Of a DNA stretch of 64,000 bases, positions 3,386 through 11,024 are shown piece by piece. A program made the position numbers and the translations under genes. Origin of the DNA: Nocardioidaceae bacterium (GTDB lineage: Bacteria; Actinomycetota; Actinomycetes; Propionibacteriales; Nocardioidaceae). Numbering within the stretch: the first letter of the stretch is position 1; each line of letters starts with the position of its first letter. The notes under the pieces were generated by a model. The model saw only the letters and a program-made list of their open reading frames with translations. It ran no database searches and had not been told where the DNA came from. The DNA is taken from contig CP076053.1 in NCBI GenBank assembly GCA_018672315.1, positions 1,537,827-1,601,826 on the forward strand, in the 5' to 3' direction.

Positions 3386-3465
3386 GGCCGAGCCGCGTCG
3401 CCACCTGCTCAGGGAGGGCGTCCGTGGGATGCTCGCGTCCGCGCAGGTCGAGCAGAGGAGGACAG

Positions 3466-4272
3466 GTGGCCGGACGTGGGCACGGGCCCGACTTCGTCGA
3501 GTCGCTCGCTCGTGGTCTCGACGTGCTGACCTGCTTCGACGCCACCCGCCGTGAGCTCTCGCTGACGGAGGTCTCCGCCGCCACCGACCTCGCCAGGCCC
3601 ACGGCTCGGCGTCTCCTGCTGACGTTGCAGGAGCTGGGCTACGTCCGCACCACCGAGCGCGGCGCCTTCGCCCTCACCCCGCAGGTGCTGCGCCTCGGCA
3701 TCGCGTACGCCAGCTCGCTCGGGCTGTGGGACGTCGCCCGGCCGCACCTGGAGGACCTCGTCGCCCGGACCCGCGAGTCCTCGTCGATGTCGCAGCTCGA
3801 CGGTCACGACATCGTGTACGTCGCGCGCGTGTCGGTGCCGAAGATCATCACGCTGCGCGTCGACATCGGTACGCGCTTCCCGGCCCCGTTCACCTCCCAG
3901 GGCAAGGTGCTGCTGGCCCACCTGGACGAGGCGGACCTGCGCGCCGCACTGGAGCAGCCCTCGCGCGCCGGCGTCGCCACCCGTCCCATCGACCGCGAGC
4001 AGCTGAGCCGCGAGCTCGCCGAGGTCCGTACGCGCGGCTGGGCCCTTGCCGACGAGGAGCTCGCGCCGGGGATCCGGTCCATCGCCGTCCCGGTGCCCGA
4101 CGGCCAGGGGCGGGTGCTCGCCGCCATGAACGTGACCACCCACGCCGCTGAGACGAGCCTGGACCACCTGGTCGGCGAGCACCTGCCGCTGCTCCGGTCG
4201 GCCGCCGAGCGCGTGACGGCCGACTGGGCGAGGCGTCAGCAGATGCCCACGGCGGAGTCCTCGAACGGCTGA
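3466..4272 (+). CDS. IclR-family transcriptional regulator (PcaR/PobR-like)
   Basis: This 268-residue protein has an N-terminal winged helix-turn-helix (SLTEVSAATDLARPTARR, about residues 33-50) and a C-terminal IclR effector domain with the conserved TSQGKVLLA and PGIRSIAVPVP motifs. Members related to PcaR and PobR regulate aromatic-acid catabolism, often by binding a pathway intermediate. The GTG at 3466 is preceded by AGGAGG four bases upstream and gives the usual length. It lies directly upstream of, and co-directional with, the five-gene catabolic operon starting at 4388. It is therefore the likely local regulator, acting at the -35 and inverted repeat between 4300 and 4356. Confidence 0.88.
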   Translation: MAGRGHGPDFVESLARGLDVLTCFDATRRELSLTEVSAATDLARPTARRLLLTLQELGYVRTTERGAFALTPQVLRLGIAYASSLGLWDVARPHLEDLVARTRESSSMSQLDGHDIVYVARVSVPKIITLRVDIGTRFPAPFTSQGKVLLAHLDEADLRAALEQPSRAGVATRPIDREQLSRELAEVRTRGWALADEELAPGIRSIAVPVPDGQGRVLAAMNVTTHAAETSLDHLVGEHLPLLRSAAERVTADWARRQQMPTAESSNG

Positions 4273-4387: not shown

Positions 4388-5563
4388 ATGCCCGACACGA
4401 GTGGTCCGAGCGGCCCCCTGGACGGACTCCTGGTGGCCGACTTCTCGCGGGTGCTCGCGGGCCCGTACGCCACCATGCTGCTCGCCGACATGGGCGCCAC
4501 GGTCATCAAGGTCGAGGGACCGGGCGGTGATGACACCCGCACCTGGATGCCACCGTTGCGTGGCGACATATCGACCTATTACCTGAGCATCAACCGCAAC
4601 AAGCAGTCGATCACCCTGGACCTCAAGGACACGGACGACCTCGAGGTCGCGAAGGCGCTGGCCGCCCGCGCCGACGTCGTGATCGAGAACTTCAAGCCCG
4701 GCGGGCTGGGCAAGTACGGCCTCGACTACGACTCCGTCGCGCAGGTGAACCCGGAGGTCGTCTACGCCTCCATCACCGGGTTCGGCACCGGCGGTGGAGC
4801 GCACCTCCCCGGCTACGACCTCATGGTGCAGGCGATGTCCGGCCTCATGAGCCTCACGGGGTCGCCCGAGGGGCCGGCGTACCGGGCGGGCATCTCGGTC
4901 TTCGACGTGATGACCGGCATGCACACCCTCATCGGCATCCTCGCCGCCCTGCAGGAGAAGGCGGTCTCGGGCAAGGGCCAGCACGTCGAGGCCAACCTGA
5001 TGACCTCGGCGCTCTCGGGTCTGGTGAACCAGACCGGGGCGTACGCGGCAGGGGGCGTCGTGCCGCAGCGCATGGGCAACGCCCACCCGAGCCTCTACCC
5101 GTACGAGCCCATGCCGACCTCGGACGGCGAGCTCATCGTGATCGCCGGCAACGACCGCCAGTTCGCCGCCCTCACGAGAGTGCTGGAGGTGCCCGAGCTC
5201 GCCGAGGACCCGCGCTTCCGCACCGTCGGCGACCGCACCGAGAACCGCGACGAGCTGCGTCCGCTGCTCGAGGAGCGCCTGGCGACGCGCACCCGCCACG
5301 AGTGGTTCGAGGCCCTCACCGGCGCCGGCCTGCCCGCCGCGCCGATCAACACGATCGCCGAGGGGGTCGAGTTCGCCGACAGCCTCGGGCTCGAGCCGGT
5401 CGTCGAGGTGGGCGAGGGGGAGGCGGCAGTGCCGCTGATCCGCAACCCCTTGACGTTCTCGCGCTCCCAGGTGCGCTACGAGCGGCCCCCGCCGGCGCTG
5501 GGGGAGCACTCCGACGAGGTGCGCGCCTGGCTGCGCGGCGAGACCGAGGAGGGCCAGGTATGA
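4388..5563 (+). CDS. Class III (CaiB/BaiF) CoA-transferase
   Basis: This 391-residue protein is a full-length family III CoA-transferase, which moves CoA between carboxylic acids through an aspartyl-CoA intermediate. Family features are LDGLLVADFSRVLAGPYATM near the start, the conserved block RNKQSITLDLK, VIENFKPG and the segment GYDLMVQAMSGLMS that contains the nucleophilic Asp. The start at 4388 (MPDTSG) begins just before the conserved fold. It is the first gene of the operon and overlaps the next gene by four bases (ATGA). It probably activates an acid produced by the pathway for cleavage by the citryl-CoA-lyase-like enzyme. The acid is unknown. Confidence 0.88.
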   Translation: MPDTSGPSGPLDGLLVADFSRVLAGPYATMLLADMGATVIKVEGPGGDDTRTWMPPLRGDISTYYLSINRNKQSITLDLKDTDDLEVAKALAARADVVIENFKPGGLGKYGLDYDSVAQVNPEVVYASITGFGTGGGAHLPGYDLMVQAMSGLMSLTGSPEGPAYRAGISVFDVMTGMHTLIGILAALQEKAVSGKGQHVEANLMTSALSGLVNQTGAYAAGGVVPQRMGNAHPSLYPYEPMPTSDGELIVIAGNDRQFAALTRVLEVPELAEDPRFRTVGDRTENRDELRPLLEERLATRTRHEWFEALTGAGLPAAPINTIAEGVEFADSLGLEPVVEVGEGEAAVPLIRNPLTFSRSQVRYERPPPALGEHSDEVRAWLRGETEEGQV

Positions 5564-6366
5564 GCGAGCTCCGGTTCCCGACATCGCTCGGGATGTCGAC
5601 GACGTCGACGATCACGCTGCTCGGCGAGGACCTCGCCGAGGACCTGATGGGGACGGTCAGCCTCACCGGGCTCGTCTACCGCATGGTGACGCTCGAGGTG
5701 CCCACCGAGGGCCAGGTGCGCATGCTCGACGCCTGCCTGCTGGCGCTGGCCGACCACGGCTTCACACCGACCGCCCTGGTGGCGCGGCTGACCTTCCTCT
5801 CGGCGCCGGACTCCGTGCAGGGAGCGATGGCCGCGGGGCTGCTGGGTGGGGGCTCACGGTTCCTCGGCGTCACCGAGGACTGCGGTCAGTTCCTGCACCG
5901 CGTCGTCGAGGACCTCGAGGAGGTGCCGACCGACGACACCGGCTGGGACGCCGTGGCGCTGGAGGTCGTACGCCGCGAGCGCAAGGCGCGCCGCATCATC
6001 CCGGGGCTGGGGCACCCGGTGCACAAGGAGCTTGACCCGCGTACGCCGGCCCTGGCCCGCATCGCCCGCGAGGAGGACTGCTTCGGACCGCACCTCGCAC
6101 TGTTCGAGGCGATCGGGCGGGTCCACGAGGAGGTGCTCGGTCGGCGACTCGTGCTCAACGGCGCCGGGGTCGTCGGAGCGGCCCTCGCCGACCTCGGGCT
6201 GCCGATGGAGCTGCTGCGGGGGTTCGCGCTGTTCGCCCGCGCGGGCGGCCTGCTGGGTCAGCTGGCCGAGGAGCTGCGGATGCCCGTCGGCATGGACGTC
6301 TACCGGACCGTCGAGGACAACGCCGCGTTCGTGGACCCCTCCGACGTCTCCACCCGGACGGAGTGA
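5560..6366 (+). CDS. Citryl-CoA lyase-like protein (citrate synthase fold)
   Basis: This 268-residue protein matches the short citryl-CoA-lyase branch of the citrate synthase superfamily. It has the IPGLGHPVHKELDPRTP loop carrying a catalytic His and the C-terminal PVGMDVYRTVEDNAAF segment. Enzymes of this type cleave a citryl-like CoA thioester into acetyl-CoA or a related acyl-CoA plus an oxo-acid. Length and motifs exclude full citrate synthase (about 370-430 aa). The ATG overlaps the stop of the CoA-transferase gene, so the two are translationally coupled and may form one activation-cleavage module. The usual His in the last helix block (LVGH) is Gln here (LLGQ). Activity on citryl-CoA itself is not established. 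Confidence 0.75.
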   Translation: MSELRFPTSLGMSTTSTITLLGEDLAEDLMGTVSLTGLVYRMVTLEVPTEGQVRMLDACLLALADHGFTPTALVARLTFLSAPDSVQGAMAAGLLGGGSRFLGVTEDCGQFLHRVVEDLEEVPTDDTGWDAVALEVVRRERKARRIIPGLGHPVHKELDPRTPALARIAREEDCFGPHLALFEAIGRVHEEVLGRRLVLNGAGVVGAALADLGLPMELLRGFALFARAGGLLGQLAEELRMPVGMDVYRTVEDNAAFVDPSDVSTRTE

Positions 6367-6376
6367 AGGAGCGCCC

Positions 6377-7273
6377 ATGGCCGATCTCGTCGCGATCCTG
6401 GCGACCACCCACCACCCCTTCTACTACAAGACCAGCCAGATGCCGGCCGAGGAGGCACCGCCGTTCGCGGCCGACTGGGTCCGGCACGTGGAGGCCTATC
6501 GGGAGACCCTGACCAGGGCCCGGCCCGACGTGCTCGTGATGGTCGGCTCCGACCACTTCCACCAGCTCTGGCTCGACAACATGCCGCAGTTCCTCGTCGG
6601 CAAGGCGCCGTTCTACGACGGCAACTGGGAGAACGAGATGCGGGAGTTCGGCCTCCCCAAGCTCTTCTTCAAGGGCGACGAGGAGCTCTCGGCGTACATG
6701 CTGCGCGAGGGCATCGACAAGGGCTTCGACCTGGCCTTCTCCAACGAGCTGCGGGTCGACCACTCGATCACCTGCCCGATCTTCACGGTGCGGCCGCAGA
6801 ACGACCTGCCGATCGTGCCGATCTACACCAACATCTTCGCCCCGCCGCTGCCGCGTCCCGAACGCTTCGTGCAGCTGGGCCGGACGATCCGCGAGATCAT
6901 CGACGCCTGGCCGAGCCACCTGCGGGTCGCGGTCATCGGCACCGGCCACCTCTCCCTGGAGCTCGGCGGCCCCCGCCAGTTCGGGCCGAGCGGACCCGAC
7001 CCGGAGTTCGACGCGAGGGCGGTGCGGTGGATCGCCGAGGGCGACATCGACGGGTGCCTGTCCGGGGTGTCGCTCGACAGCCTCCACGCCCCCGGCAACG
7101 CCACGCACGGGTTCATGGACTTCATGCTGATGATGGGCATCGCCGGCCACCGTCGGGCCGACTACGCCGACAACCTCGACCTGTTCCACACGATGGAGGC
7201 GTACTTCACCTGGTACCCCAACCCCCACCTCATCGAGGGGCCCGCGCTGAGCTCGAGGGGGTCGCTGCTGTGA
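6377..7273 (+). CDS. Class III extradiol dioxygenase beta-subunit-like protein (LigB superfamily)
   Basis: This 298-residue protein has the LigB fold. His12 and His60 match two iron ligands of protocatechuate 4,5-dioxygenase, and the VDHS block (His129) is also kept. Recalled from the Sphingobium LigB sequence, the third iron ligand lies in GVELVMW. The aligned segment here, THGFMDF at 243-249, has Gly245 in its place. The catalytic His of GMSHQ aligns with Leu194 in GHLSLE, while a His occurs three residues earlier at 191. The protein may be a distinct subfamily using other ligands, or may not cleave aromatic rings. It has the ribosome site GAAGGA and overlaps the LigA-like gene by four bases. 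Confidence 0.8.
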   Translation: MADLVAILATTHHPFYYKTSQMPAEEAPPFAADWVRHVEAYRETLTRARPDVLVMVGSDHFHQLWLDNMPQFLVGKAPFYDGNWENEMREFGLPKLFFKGDEELSAYMLREGIDKGFDLAFSNELRVDHSITCPIFTVRPQNDLPIVPIYTNIFAPPLPRPERFVQLGRTIREIIDAWPSHLRVAVIGTGHLSLELGGPRQFGPSGPDPEFDARAVRWIAEGDIDGCLSGVSLDSLHAPGNATHGFMDFMLMMGIAGHRRADYADNLDLFHTMEAYFTWYPNPHLIEGPALSSRGSLL

Positions 7274-7632
7274 GCAGGTACCTGGTCAACAAGTTCCTCT
7301 TCACCGTCGACCGCGACGTCGAGCTGACCGAGCGGTACCGCGAGGACCCCGCCGGCACCGTCGCCTGGTGGGAGGCCGAGATGGCGAACCGGATCCTCAG
7401 CTGCATCCCCGCCGAGCGCAGCACCTGGCTCGCGTTCGAGGACGCCGAGCGCCGCGCGCTCGTCGAGCAGGACCACGTCGCGCTCTTCGAGCTGGGCGCC
7501 CACCCGTTCCTGACGCTGACGCTGTGGATCGCGATGTTCGAGCGGGACTTCGACGAACCCCTGGGCATGCAGCTCGACTACGCAGCCAGGCTCGCCCACA
7601 TCGGCCTGCCGTACCCCGACATCAGCACCTGA
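7270..7632 (+). CDS. LigA-like small subunit of a protocatechuate-type dioxygenase
   Basis: This 120-residue helical protein matches the LigA (protocatechuate 4,5-dioxygenase alpha-subunit) family in size and in the segment GAHPFLTLTLWIAMFERDF. In LigAB the small subunit caps the active site of the LigB-like subunit. The GTG start overlaps the preceding stop (GTGA), so synthesis is coupled to the LigB-like partner. A heteromeric enzyme is therefore expected. The ring substrate cannot be read from the sequence. Confidence 0.75.
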   Translation: MSRYLVNKFLFTVDRDVELTERYREDPAGTVAWWEAEMANRILSCIPAERSTWLAFEDAERRALVEQDHVALFELGAHPFLTLTLWIAMFERDFDEPLGMQLDYAARLAHIGLPYPDIST

Positions 7633-7668: not shown

Positions 7669-9117
7669 GTGACCGGACAACCCGCCACCGTCTTCCGCAA
7701 CGCCATCGTGCTGACGATGGACGCGCAGCACCAGGTGCTCCCGGACGCCGACGTGCTCGTCGTCGGCACCGACATCGCCGCCGTGGGCCCCGACCTCGAG
7801 GTGCCCGAGGGCACGACCGAGGTCGACGCGCGTGGCGGCATCCTGATGCCGGGCATGATCGACACCCACCGCCACATGTGGCAGACCGCGCTGCGCGGCT
7901 ACGGGGCCGACTGGACCCTGACGCAGTACTTCGTGTGGAACTACCTCGAGCACGGCCGCAAGTTCCGCCCGCAGGACATCTTCGCGGGCAACCTGATCAG
8001 TGCCTGGGAGGCGCTGGACTCCGGGGTGACCACGAGCGTCGACTGGTCGCACAACCTCCACACCCCTCAGCACGCCGACGCCGCCGTGGACGCCCTGGAG
8101 CAGACGCCGGGGAGGTTCGTCTTCGCGTACGGCAACATCCAGGCCGGCCCGTGGGAGTGGACGGCCGACCCGGACTTCCGCTCGTTCGTCGAGCGCCGCA
8201 TGCCGCGCAGCGAGATGCTCGGCGCCCAGCTGGCGTTCGACGTCACCGGCGACCCTGCGTTCCCCGAGAAGGCCGCCTTCGAGGTCGCCCGCGAGCTCGG
8301 CCTGCCCGTCACCACGCACGCGGGCGTCTGGGGCGCCACCAACGACAACGGCATCCAGCTGATGCACGACCACGGCTTCATGGGGCCGGAGACCGTGTAC
8401 GTCCACGCCGCGACCCTCAGCGACGACTCCTACCAGCGCATCGCCGCCACGGGAGGCCACGCGTCCGTCGCCGCGGAGAGCGAGGCCAGCTGCGGGCAGG
8501 GGTACCCGTCGTCGTGGTCGCTGCGGCGGCACGGCATCCCGATCTCGCTGTCGATGGACACCAGCGTCTGGATGAGCGCGGACATCTTCTCGGCGATGAG
8601 GTCGACGCTGAACGCGGACCGTACGCGGGAGCACTTCGAGGCCCACAGCACCGGTGACACCGTCACCCACATCGGACTGCGCTGCGAGGACGCCGTGGAG
8701 TACGCGACCATGGGCGGCGCCCGCGCCCTGGGCCTGGCCGACGTCGTCGGCAGCATCGAGCCGGGCAAGCGGGCCGACCTCGTGCTGGTCAAGAACGACG
8801 CCTCGCCGGTGATGTTCCCGATCACCAACCCGTACGGGCACGTCGTGATGCAGGCCCAGCGCGGCGACGTCCACACCGTGCTCGTCAACGGCCGGACCGT
8901 GAAGTCCGACGGCCGCCTGGTCGACGCCGACCTGCAGCGGGCGCGGACGGAGGTCGAAAACACCCTCGACCACCTGCGCGGCGAGCTCGGCGCCGAGGAG
9001 TGGGTCAGCGGCATGCAGCCCGACATCCCGGAGTCGAAGGTGCTCGACAACCCCTACATGTACACGGATTACCGCAACAAGGGGGCGGCCACCGAGCCTA
9101 CGGAGACCCTCGCCTGA
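7669..9117 (+). CDS. Metal-dependent amidohydrolase (AtzA/TrzN/SsnA-like)
   Basis: This 482-residue enzyme belongs to the cyclic amidohydrolase superfamily. Visible metal ligands are DTHRH (His67 and His69), THAG (His217), VHAA (His246) and SMDTS (Asp297), followed by the typical PGKRADLVLV beta-sandwich return. Relatives deaminate or dechlorinate heteroaromatic rings or hydrolyse cyclic amides in the cytosol. The GTG at 7669 follows GAGGAG by nine bases. Its place as last gene of the ring-cleavage operon suggests that it either prepares a nitrogen-containing ring for the dioxygenase or opens a lactam-type product. Neither is proven. Confidence 0.83.
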   Translation: MTGQPATVFRNAIVLTMDAQHQVLPDADVLVVGTDIAAVGPDLEVPEGTTEVDARGGILMPGMIDTHRHMWQTALRGYGADWTLTQYFVWNYLEHGRKFRPQDIFAGNLISAWEALDSGVTTSVDWSHNLHTPQHADAAVDALEQTPGRFVFAYGNIQAGPWEWTADPDFRSFVERRMPRSEMLGAQLAFDVTGDPAFPEKAAFEVARELGLPVTTHAGVWGATNDNGIQLMHDHGFMGPETVYVHAATLSDDSYQRIAATGGHASVAAESEASCGQGYPSSWSLRRHGIPISLSMDTSVWMSADIFSAMRSTLNADRTREHFEAHSTGDTVTHIGLRCEDAVEYATMGGARALGLADVVGSIEPGKRADLVLVKNDASPVMFPITNPYGHVVMQAQRGDVHTVLVNGRTVKSDGRLVDADLQRARTEVENTLDHLRGELGAEEWVSGMQPDIPESKVLDNPYMYTDYRNKGAATEPTETLA

Positions 9118-9182
9118 GGATCGTCCCAGGTCAGGGGCGCGTGAACCGGTCCTCGATCGGGCACCGATGGCGCGGTGATCCT

Positions 9183-9210
9183 GGTGCTTCAACGGTGAAG
9201 CACCTAGATT
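9183..9210 (+). promoter_or_regulatory. Palindromic operator next to a -10 hexamer
   Basis: GGTGCTTCA-ACGG-TGAAGCACC is a perfect 9-bp inverted repeat at 9183-9204. TAGATT, a good -10 hexamer, follows at once at 9205-9210. The dyad therefore covers the promoter spacer of the hydrolase gene at 9261 and is a strong repressor-site candidate. It could also end the upstream operon as a stem-loop, although no U-tract follows. Confidence 0.5.
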
Positions 9211-9260
9211 GAGCAGCCGCCCCGAGACCGGTGGGCGGGAGCCGGACTGAGAGGTGTCCC

Positions 9261-10193
9261 ATGAGCGTGCAGGCGCGAATGCTCGGACTGTCCTTGCGCA
9301 TGACGGTGCGACCCTTCATCGCGGTGTGGTCGCGTGCCCCCGGGCTGCCGTGGCCGTACGCGCTGGCCGATCTCGGCGGGCTGATGACCGTCCCGGTCAA
9401 GGGCACGTCCTTCGTCTCCTCCCGCTCCGGAGACGTGAGGGTGGTCGACGTCGTGCCGGCGAAGCGGGTCCACGGGCGTCGCATCCTGTACTTCCCCGGG
9501 GGCGCCTTCCTGGTCGGGGGGCAGCACCTGCACCGCGGTCTGCTGGCGCACGTCGCCCACAAGACCGGCGCACGCATCACGGCCGTCGGGTACCGCAAGA
9601 TGCCGCGCCACCCCATCTCGGCCTCCGTCGCGGACTGCCTGGACGCCTATCGTGCAGCTGTCGAGAAGGGCACCGACGACCTCGTCGTGATGGGCGACTC
9701 CGCCGGCGGCTTCCTGACGCTCGCCGTCCTTGCCGCGGCACAGGCCGAGGGTCTGCCGATGCCCGCCGGCGCGGTGACACTGTCCCCGCTGTGCGAGGTG
9801 CGGGCCGACCAGCGCGACCCGCGGCGTACGGCGTGCGCGGTCTTCGGGCCGGCCGCGATCCCCGCGATGCTGCGCCTGGCCGACGGCATCGAGCGCGCCC
9901 GAGGGTCGGCCGGCTACGCCCACCCCCACGAGCTGTGCGCTCCCGACACCCCGCCGATCCTCATGCAGGCCGCGCGTCGGGAGTCGCTGTTCCCCGAGAT
10001 CAAGCACCTGGCGCAGACGCTGCGGGACCGCGGCATCGACTGCGAGCTCCAGGCGTGGGACCTCGACGTGCACGTCTTCCAGGCGGCCCCCTGGGTGCCC
10101 GAGGCGCGGGACGCGGTGCGCACCGTGGCTGCGTTCTGCGACCGGGCGTGGGCGCAGGCGCGGGACGCGGTGCGCGGCGAGCAGATCGCCTGA
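9261..10193 (+). CDS. Alpha/beta hydrolase, HSL (hormone-sensitive lipase) type
   Basis: This 310-residue esterase-like protein has an HGGG-type oxyanion block changed to YFPGGAFLVGG (about residues 77-87), the nucleophile elbow GDSAGG (about 146-151) and a late DVHVF block with the catalytic His. HSL-family members hydrolyse short-chain esters or lactones in the cytosol. There is no signal peptide, although the first 30 residues are moderately hydrophobic. The ATG at 9261 is preceded by GAGAGGTG. The palindrome at 9183-9204 overlaps its promoter, so expression is probably repressed until an inducer is present. Confidence 0.8.
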   Translation: MSVQARMLGLSLRMTVRPFIAVWSRAPGLPWPYALADLGGLMTVPVKGTSFVSSRSGDVRVVDVVPAKRVHGRRILYFPGGAFLVGGQHLHRGLLAHVAHKTGARITAVGYRKMPRHPISASVADCLDAYRAAVEKGTDDLVVMGDSAGGFLTLAVLAAAQAEGLPMPAGAVTLSPLCEVRADQRDPRRTACAVFGPAAIPAMLRLADGIERARGSAGYAHPHELCAPDTPPILMQAARRESLFPEIKHLAQTLRDRGIDCELQAWDLDVHVFQAAPWVPEARDAVRTVAAFCDRAWAQARDAVRGEQIA

Positions 10194-10214
10194 GTCGGCG
10201 GGCCCTGGCAACGG

Positions 10215-11024
10215 CTACGCGGCGCGTCGCCTCAGCGCCGCTCGTTGCGCCGCGGGACTCCCTGGCGTCGGCCACCAGCGCACGACCACGGCGGTCTGCA
10301 GCAGGGTCCAGGAGCTGTTCACCACCCAGTAGACGAGCAGCGCGACCGGCACGAAGGCCGAGGTGACGAGGAGCGCGACCGCGGACAGCAGCGGCATGGC
10401 CTGCAGCACCTGCGTCATCACCGTGCCGCCGTCGTACGGCACCGCGTTCGGCAGCACGAGGAAGCGCTGCGTGACGAAGGAGAGCGTCGCGGCCGCCGCG
10501 GCCAGGCCTGCGATGACGGCGAGGTGCGTGACGTCGAGCCCGGCGTACCCGTGCTGCGCGAGGGGCACCCCGACCAGGGTGGCCGCGCCGAACGACGCCA
10601 CCAGCCCGGTGTCGACAGCTCCGACCGGCGTCCCGGCGGCGAGGTCCGAGAGCAGGTGGAAGAGCGCGAACCAGATCGGCACCTGCACCAGCACCGGCAG
10701 ACAGCCCCAGGGGCTGAGCCGGTGCTCGGCGGCGACGCGTCGACGCTCCTCGGCGTACGCGCGGACCGACGCGGGGTCCTGTCGCTCGCGGTAGGTCTCC
10801 GCGAGTGCGCGCAGCTGGGGTCGGGCCCGGGCGGCGGCGTGAGCGGTGCGTACGCCGTGGACTGCGAACGGCAGCAGCAGGAGGCGGACGGTCACCACGA
10901 GGACGGCGACGGAAGCGGTCCAGACGAGGCCGGACGCCGGGTCGGGACCGAGCGCGGTCAGTCCGGCATGAGCGAGGTGCAGGGTCTGGGCAAGGGCATG
11001 GGACAGGGGGTCGAGCAGCGACAC
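10215..11024 (-). CDS. YidC/Oxa1-family membrane insertase, second-type paralogue
   Basis: This 269-residue polytopic protein has the Oxa1 core: a VTVRLLLLPF first core helix, a charged cytosolic hairpin (ALAETYRERQDPASVRAY), then CLPVLVQVPIWFALF and three further helices. YidC inserts small membrane proteins and assists SecYEG. It lacks the large extracytoplasmic domain, as usual in Gram-positive bacteria. The neighbours are not the rpmH-rnpA-yidC-jag set found near oriC, so this is probably an additional paralogue. The GTG at 11022-11024 follows AGGAGCC. The companion gene at 11078-11386 lies just upstream on the same strand. Confidence 0.85.
   Translation of the reverse strand: MSLLDPLSHALAQTLHLAHAGLTALGPDPASGLVWTASVAVLVVTVRLLLLPFAVHGVRTAHAAARARPQLRALAETYRERQDPASVRAYAEERRRVAAEHRLSPWGCLPVLVQVPIWFALFHLLSDLAAGTPVGAVDTGLVASFGAATLVGVPLAQHGYAGLDVTHLAVIAGLAAAAATLSFVTQRFLVLPNAVPYDGGTVMTQVLQAMPLLSAVALLVTSAFVPVALLVYWVVNSSWTLLQTAVVVRWWPTPGSPAAQRAALRRRAA

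Follow-up and report, generated by a model that had tools for sequence, protein, structure and literature searches.

The LigB-like protein encoded at positions 6377–7273 of the DNA analysed here (hereafter the window; 64,000 nucleotides of a Nocardioidaceae bacterium) has, judging by alignment, lost two active site residues. The third metal ligand, a glutamate, is replaced by Gly245 and the second catalytic histidine by Leu194. Conversely, the same alignments indicate that metal-ligand residues His12 and His60, and the substrate-orienting His129, are kept. Despite the two losses, many bacteria have a well-conserved version of the protein, encoded next to the same set of degradation genes. Hence, this LigB-like family probably has a rebuilt active site or catalyses a different reaction.

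The host genome is 3.6 Mb in size. Around the LigB-like gene, the following genes are all encoded by the forward strand. Those for the regulator, CoA-transferase and citryl-CoA lyase-like protein are upstream of the LigB-like and LigA-like pair, and the amidohydrolase gene is downstream.

3424–4272, + strand: IclR-family regulator, PcaR/PcaU/PobR-like (TIGR02431, 270.5 bits, slightly below the cut-off of 284.75)
4388–5563, + strand: CoA-transferase family III (PF02515, 396.7 bits)
5560–6366, + strand: citryl-CoA lyase-like protein of the citrate-synthase family (NF004868 (PRK06224), 273.6 bits, above the cut-off of 193)
6377–7273, + strand: LigB-like subunit without the Glu ligand and catalytic His (PF02900, 80.8 bits against a cut-off of 26.3)
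7270–7632, + strand: LigA-like subunit (PF07746 match weak; best matches of the structural model are 1bou_A and the C-terminal part of DesB)
7669–9117, + strand: TRZ/ATZ-type amidohydrolase (PF01979, 106.6 bits; NF006056, 406 bits, above the cut-off of 391)

The LigB-like gene starts with ATG and encodes 298 amino acids. It overlaps by four bases with the LigA-like gene, which starts with GTG and encodes 120 amino acids. The CoA-transferase and citryl-CoA lyase-like genes also overlap by four bases. Among solved structures, the CoA-transferase is nearest to 4ed9 (CaiB/BaiF family) and 10uh (formyl-CoA transferase), followed by 9br7 (succinate-hydroxymethylglutarate CoA-transferase, 298 bits). 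The citryl-CoA lyase-like protein is nearest to the citryl-CoA lyase 6hxp. None of the ten NCBIfam class III dioxygenase models matched the LigB-like protein above its cut-off; the best, NF009901, scored 122.5 bits against 290. The same genome encodes a second PF02900 protein (L112; G000:C1:636301-636939). This is 4,5-DOPA-dioxygenase-like, has the motif EHYVPLF, and scores 125.5 bits with NF007914, below the cut-off of 233.

Relatives of the LigB-like protein were confirmed in genome contigs in 341 cases, and the best 80 were kept. Together with 8 copies from a sample of the phylum, 8 plasmid copies and the window itself, these form a core set of 97 rows. The set was assembled by similarity, so its conservation is partly selected for. 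Eleven plasmid records had 60–80% identity; 8 were counted and H1, H10 and L164 were left out. The last of these, from Neorhizobium galegae pNgVX, is outside the core set because its reading frame breaks near residue 240. The broken gene (10001-10842) is unannotated, while the annotation still has a citryl-CoA lyase and, in the place of LigA, a hypothetical gene. The positions of interest are as follows.

6410–6412, + strand: His12 codon, metal-ligand position (97 of 97 core rows)
6554–6556, + strand: His60 codon, metal-ligand position, LigB residue 61 (97 of 97 core rows)
6635–6643, + strand: codons 87–89, with Glu87 and Arg89 of a clade-specific segment, candidate displaced carboxylate ligand (both residues in 31 of 31 Glu-less rows)
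6761–6763, + strand: His129 codon, equivalent to LigB His127, the His of the VDH motif (97 of 97 core rows)
6947–6958, + strand: codons 191–194, His-Leu-Ser-Leu, where His replaces Gly at 191 and Leu replaces the catalytic His at 194 (97 of 97 core rows)
7106–7111, + strand: codons 244–245, His-Gly, with Gly245 in place of the ligand Glu242 (97 of 97 core rows; hhalign)

In LigB, residues 12, 61 and 242 are metal ligands, and residues 127 and 195 are catalytic, according to PMC11926856. The first-pass annotation had placed the two substitutions using a gapless alignment by eye to Sphingobium LigB, and both placements hold. For the catalytic histidine, phmmer aligned GTGHLSLEL with GTGGMSHQL of 1B4U_B, so that Leu194 occupies the position of His195. 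The phmmer matches stop short of the glutamate, at residue 201 (1B4U_B) or 214 (DesB). Hence, the register for this position was taken through intermediates. Using MAFFT with relatives, GNATHG lies opposite GNGAHE, GNVAGE and GNGGQE, putting Gly245 in the Glu column. The same register was obtained at 100% probability when a family profile of 34 rows was compared with 9 canonical proteins using hhalign. Aligned by eye on a downstream Gly-Ala, the DOPA-dioxygenase-like paralogue EHYVPLFVALGA also puts its His at the Gly245 position. Since these three comparisons agree, Gly245 is assigned to the ligand position.

Both substitutions, and the three retained histidines listed in the original annotation, are found in every core row. 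The full set of invariant residues comprises His12, His13, Asp59, His60, His62, Gln63, Glu87, Arg89, Asp128 and His129 in the first half of the protein. In the second half, they are His191, Leu194, Glu195, Asn241, Thr243, His244, Gly245, His271 and Glu274. The last two belong to a C-terminal segment, LFHTMEAYFTW (window positions 7181–7213), that differs from the canonical rows. We assume that this segment may sit where LigB touches its substrate. Hence, His271 and Glu274 are further candidate active site residues. The dN/dS ratio was 0.08–0.44 in nine pairs of LigB-like genes (NG86, with the first 255 codons assumed to be free of gaps), although such estimates are rough at this GC content. 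Gene decay is thus rejected on conservation and dN/dS; the first-pass annotation had already argued against it from the retained partner and operon. Copies with at least 72% identity occur in 9 of 396 genomes in the phylum sample, and copies with at least 61% identity in 21 of 197 genomes in the family sample, the host genome being included in both. One copy in the family sample (G577) has an internal TGA. The closest copies found are from Nocardioides, and relatives are spread over many actinobacterial genera. The occurrence in these two samples is patchy, which fits an accessory pathway.

The 31 Glu-less proteins formed one group in a tree of 50 rows (support 100/97; 100% of 200 bootstrap trees). 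Of these, 28 have Gly at the ligand position, and L091, L168 and L169 have Gln. Similarly, the catalytic position is Leu in 28 and Asn in 3. The next branch, L122 and L123 (from Shinella and Ochrobactrum), has Leu in place of the catalytic His, keeps the Glu ligand and lacks Glu87. Because this branch without the His still has the Glu, loss of the two residues looks stepwise in these sequences. Both trees gave long-branch warnings and were midpoint rooted; the terms "next branch" and "stepwise" presume that the canonical rows are outside. The trees took 25 of the 97 core rows. From the 17 distant rows, L099, L101 and L103 were removed prior to building the first tree, and the selection did not include L104, L106, L107 and L109. 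L170, represented by the weaker of its two matches and with a doubtful start, is in the 51-row residue table and absent from the 50-row tree.

Glu87, Arg89 and Gln63 are present in all 31 Glu-less proteins. The segment with Glu87 and Arg89 is missing from most canonical rows, and of the 20 rows in the 51-row table that bear the Glu, 1 has Glu87 as well (the canonical row L098, with Glu at both positions). Hence, Glu87 seems to arise where the canonical Glu vanishes, and is a candidate for a displaced metal ligand. Because gain and loss share one branch, and are one event rather than many, the correlation is suggestive only. Glu87 and Arg89 could simply bind substrate.

We compared a single-chain AlphaFold model of the LigB-like protein (mean pLDDT 81; pTM 0.86; pLDDT below 50 for residues 194–200) with known structures. 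The best match was 1bou_B (Z 30.4, rmsd 2.6, 280 residues). Several other LigB-fold families also match the model, and the common fold shows no function. The model of the LigA-like protein (pLDDT 85) matched 1bou_A with Z 8.1 over 88 residues, and the next unrelated row had Z 2.6. DesB was matched too, through its C-terminal part (Z 8.1 and 8.0). The Pfam LigA model, PF07746, matched weakly, with 18 of 22 family members listed, a best E-value of 0.00049 and an E-value of 0.049 for the protein of the window. A search of the PDB with a sequence profile of the LigA-like family gave no LigA chain. Taken together, the Pfam and structural matches support the identity of the partner as LigA-like. In LigAB the active site sits at the subunit interface, according to PMC10094722.

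With LigAB protocatechuate 4,5-dioxygenase (1B4U/1BOU) and DesB gallate dioxygenase, the pair shares both subunit folds, gene pairing, two metal-ligand histidines and the His127 equivalent. However, it has no equivalents of Glu242 and His195, has the additional Glu87/Arg89 segment, and differs in both the C-terminal segment and the operon partners. Other class III extradiol dioxygenases, such as MhpB and the Novosphingobium KA1 meta-cleavage subunits (known as CarBaBb), share the superfamily and the GN-x-x-x-E register. These proteins retain the Glu, the SH motif and the catalytic His, unlike the protein of the window. MEMO1 (7kq8, 7l5c) shares the fold with Z of about 16 but is far more distant, at 8–9% identity in the structural alignment. 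With its Cys ligand, it is a relative with a changed metal site. The 4,5-DOPA dioxygenase and YgiD structures (8IN2 and 2PW6; Z 22.8 and 19.2) belong to the same superfamily and have a third ligand other than Glu. In these enzymes the ligand is His, and BvDOD keeps both catalytic histidines (PMC11926856), whereas the window protein has Gly and Leu. Hence, a DOPA-dioxygenase-type His is absent from the third-ligand position; Gly245 is there and His244 is one residue off, with the DOPA-type register set by eye.

Both metal-ligand histidines, His129 and the LigA partner are conserved. This argues for a metal-dependent enzyme rather than a relic. With a little less than even confidence, we favour a functional alpha-beta enzyme of the LigAB type whose site has been rebuilt. 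It would act in a catabolic pathway, the last steps of which are CoA transfer and a cleavage of the citryl-CoA lyase type. The PcaR/PobR-like regulator in the operon is counted in its favour. A divalent metal would still be bound by His12 and His60. The missing carboxylate would be supplied from elsewhere, most likely by Glu87 of the clade-specific segment, or its place left to substrate or water. That other third ligands exist in the superfamily is illustrated by BvDOD and YgiD, which use three histidines (PMC11926856). His129, with Arg89, Gln63 and usually His191, would bind and protonate the substrate. The reaction would be oxidative ring opening, or a related metal-assisted cleavage, of a carboxylated cyclic compound. 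The amidohydrolase may then act on a pathway amide, lactone or amine, and the CoA-transferase may activate the resulting tertiary-hydroxy polycarboxylate. Finally, the citryl-CoA lyase-like enzyme would cleave the CoA ester into an acyl-CoA and a keto acid. We infer the tertiary-hydroxy polycarboxylate, as a late intermediate, because of the solved relatives of the CoA-transferase and the citryl-CoA type of lyase; the adjoining genes belong to the family III CoA-transferases and to the PRK06224 citryl-CoA lyases. A bolder proposal is tentative. Here, the metal carboxylate would have moved from the canonical helix to the Glu87 segment and the acid catalyst would have been discarded. The reaction would be new for LigAB, for instance a non-oxidative C-C cleavage or a new reaction with O2. 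It would serve a widespread and as yet undescribed catabolic pathway that has the same two final steps.

The operon is maintained in relatives. Using a threshold of at least 50% identity over at least 60% of the query, LigA was present in 80 of the best 80 of 341 loci, the CoA-transferase and citryl-CoA lyase each in 79, the amidohydrolase in 78 and the IclR regulator in 76. Coupling to a LigA-like partner and an operon, claimed for the window alone, thus extends to the family. The alpha/beta hydrolase of the window (9231–10193) was found in none of the 80 loci. A zinc-type dehydrogenase/quinone reductase recurs in 51 of them, as judged by clustering with one copy typed. On plasmids of Martelella and Sinorhizobium, the lyase, CoA-transferase, LigB, LigA-like and amidohydrolase genes are all present. 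An Aminobacter plasmid has the same genes without an annotated amidohydrolase nearby. TRAP or ABC transporter genes adjoin the copies in these three genera. In the Aminobacter copy (L116), a gene at 8959–9984 is labelled as uroporphyrinogen decarboxylase family, and its best matches are methionine-synthase-type models. It adjoins genes for a CocE/NonD hydrolase and a TRAP transporter. A Rhodococcus plasmid copy has an MhpA-like monooxygenase in addition. On Rhizobium plasmids L118 and L124, the LigB and LigA-like genes are all of the operon that is still together. Genes encoding cytochrome P450, cytochrome c peroxidase and sensor kinase lie in the vicinity of this pair.

Gene context also bears on whether the protein is an oxygenase. 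The LigB fold could have abandoned Fe(II)/O2 chemistry and now catalyse a hydrolysis, hydration or C-C lyase step. Its substrate might be a CoA thioester, and a redox-inert metal, for example zinc, might or might not take part. We consider this doubtful, although it is a serious alternative. A non-oxygenase would likewise show loss of both the third ligand and the catalytic acid, and this counts against a rebuilt oxygenase site. Furthermore, of the five Glu-less relatives that branch deeper, three (L091, in L114; L168; L169) have family III CoA-transferase genes nearby. In L168 and L169, where the ligand position is Gln, two different CoA-transferases flank LigB, and in L168 a ChsH2-type OB-fold/zinc-ribbon protein adjoins it. 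The context of these two is possibly a separate pathway. Conversely, the deepest-branching Glu-less relatives, L120 and L121, have no CoA-transferase among their annotated neighbours. No other ring-opening enzyme was found in the gene clusters present in at least 51 of the 80 loci (flanks up to 8 kb; rarer clusters are mostly unannotated). Invariance of His12, His60 and His129 also argues against a non-oxygenase, as if the old metal and substrate binding were retained.

The residue at the ligand position itself suggests another solution. 2-Oxoglutarate halogenases have Gly or Ala instead of the carboxylate, and the vacated place is filled by an anion or a group of the substrate. By analogy, an open two-His iron site could support an oxygenase or halogenase with new reactivity. 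Gly in all core rows, and in most of the Glu-less group, fits this idea. However, the three Gln-bearing proteins do not, Glu87 may occupy the site, and we saw no link to 2-oxoglutarate or halide. Such a site is therefore improbable. The alpha subunit of aminophenol dioxygenase is metal-free, and the superfamily includes heteromers of related chains, such as 3vsg_A with 3vsg_B. A protein that has lost two catalytic residues could, by analogy, serve a different, catalytic protein as a pseudoenzyme or structural subunit. This is more improbable still, since the partner is of the LigA type and the remaining metal and catalytic histidines never vary. Moreover, the genome has a single further PF02900 match, the DOPA-dioxygenase-like paralogue, and this is unlinked.

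The least plausible alternative, rejected here, is a three-His site like that of DOPA dioxygenase with His244 as third ligand: such sites are known in the superfamily (PMC11926856) and His244 is invariant in the core set, but the register sets the ligand one residue on, some canonical rows (L098, L100, L102 and L161) have the same His beside a real Glu, and at position 244 L167, L120 and L121 have Pro, L091 has Tyr, and L168 and L169 have Phe. Of these, L167 (61% identity, added later) has an intact operon. Asp248 was also rejected as a ligand, being present in only 92 of 97 core rows, with Val or Asn in the other 5. The first-pass annotation had named both residues, together with His191, at a changed metal site, and had described the histidines at 191 and 244 as new. 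His191 is indeed new, replacing a Gly that is invariant in 17 compared canonical rows, and is found in 29 of the 31 Glu-less proteins (Asn in L168 and L169). His244 is not new. The suggested subfamily is conserved, but all three residues vary in relatives and so do not stand as substitute ligands.

Plasmid records give family members the label "extradiol ring-cleavage dioxygenase" or "hypothetical protein". A full-text literature search, in which most subscription papers were out of reach, returned no account of such a LigB group or operon. It found no paper linking genes for citryl-CoA lyase or family III CoA-transferase to a LigAB-type gene, and a search for the substrate found no paper on this gene set; PMC13118837 proved irrelevant. 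Two residues central to extradiol chemistry are missing throughout a sampled group that carries these labels. Should the metal still be bound, through a relocated ligand, the family would be a case of natural active site migration, with an intermediate surviving in L122 and L123, where the Glu is kept and the His lost. Otherwise, the LigB fold would have acquired a new reaction. In both cases, the protein marks a catabolic operon, without description in searchable papers, that is present in many actinobacterial genera and, whole or in part, on plasmids of the alphaproteobacterial rhizobia.
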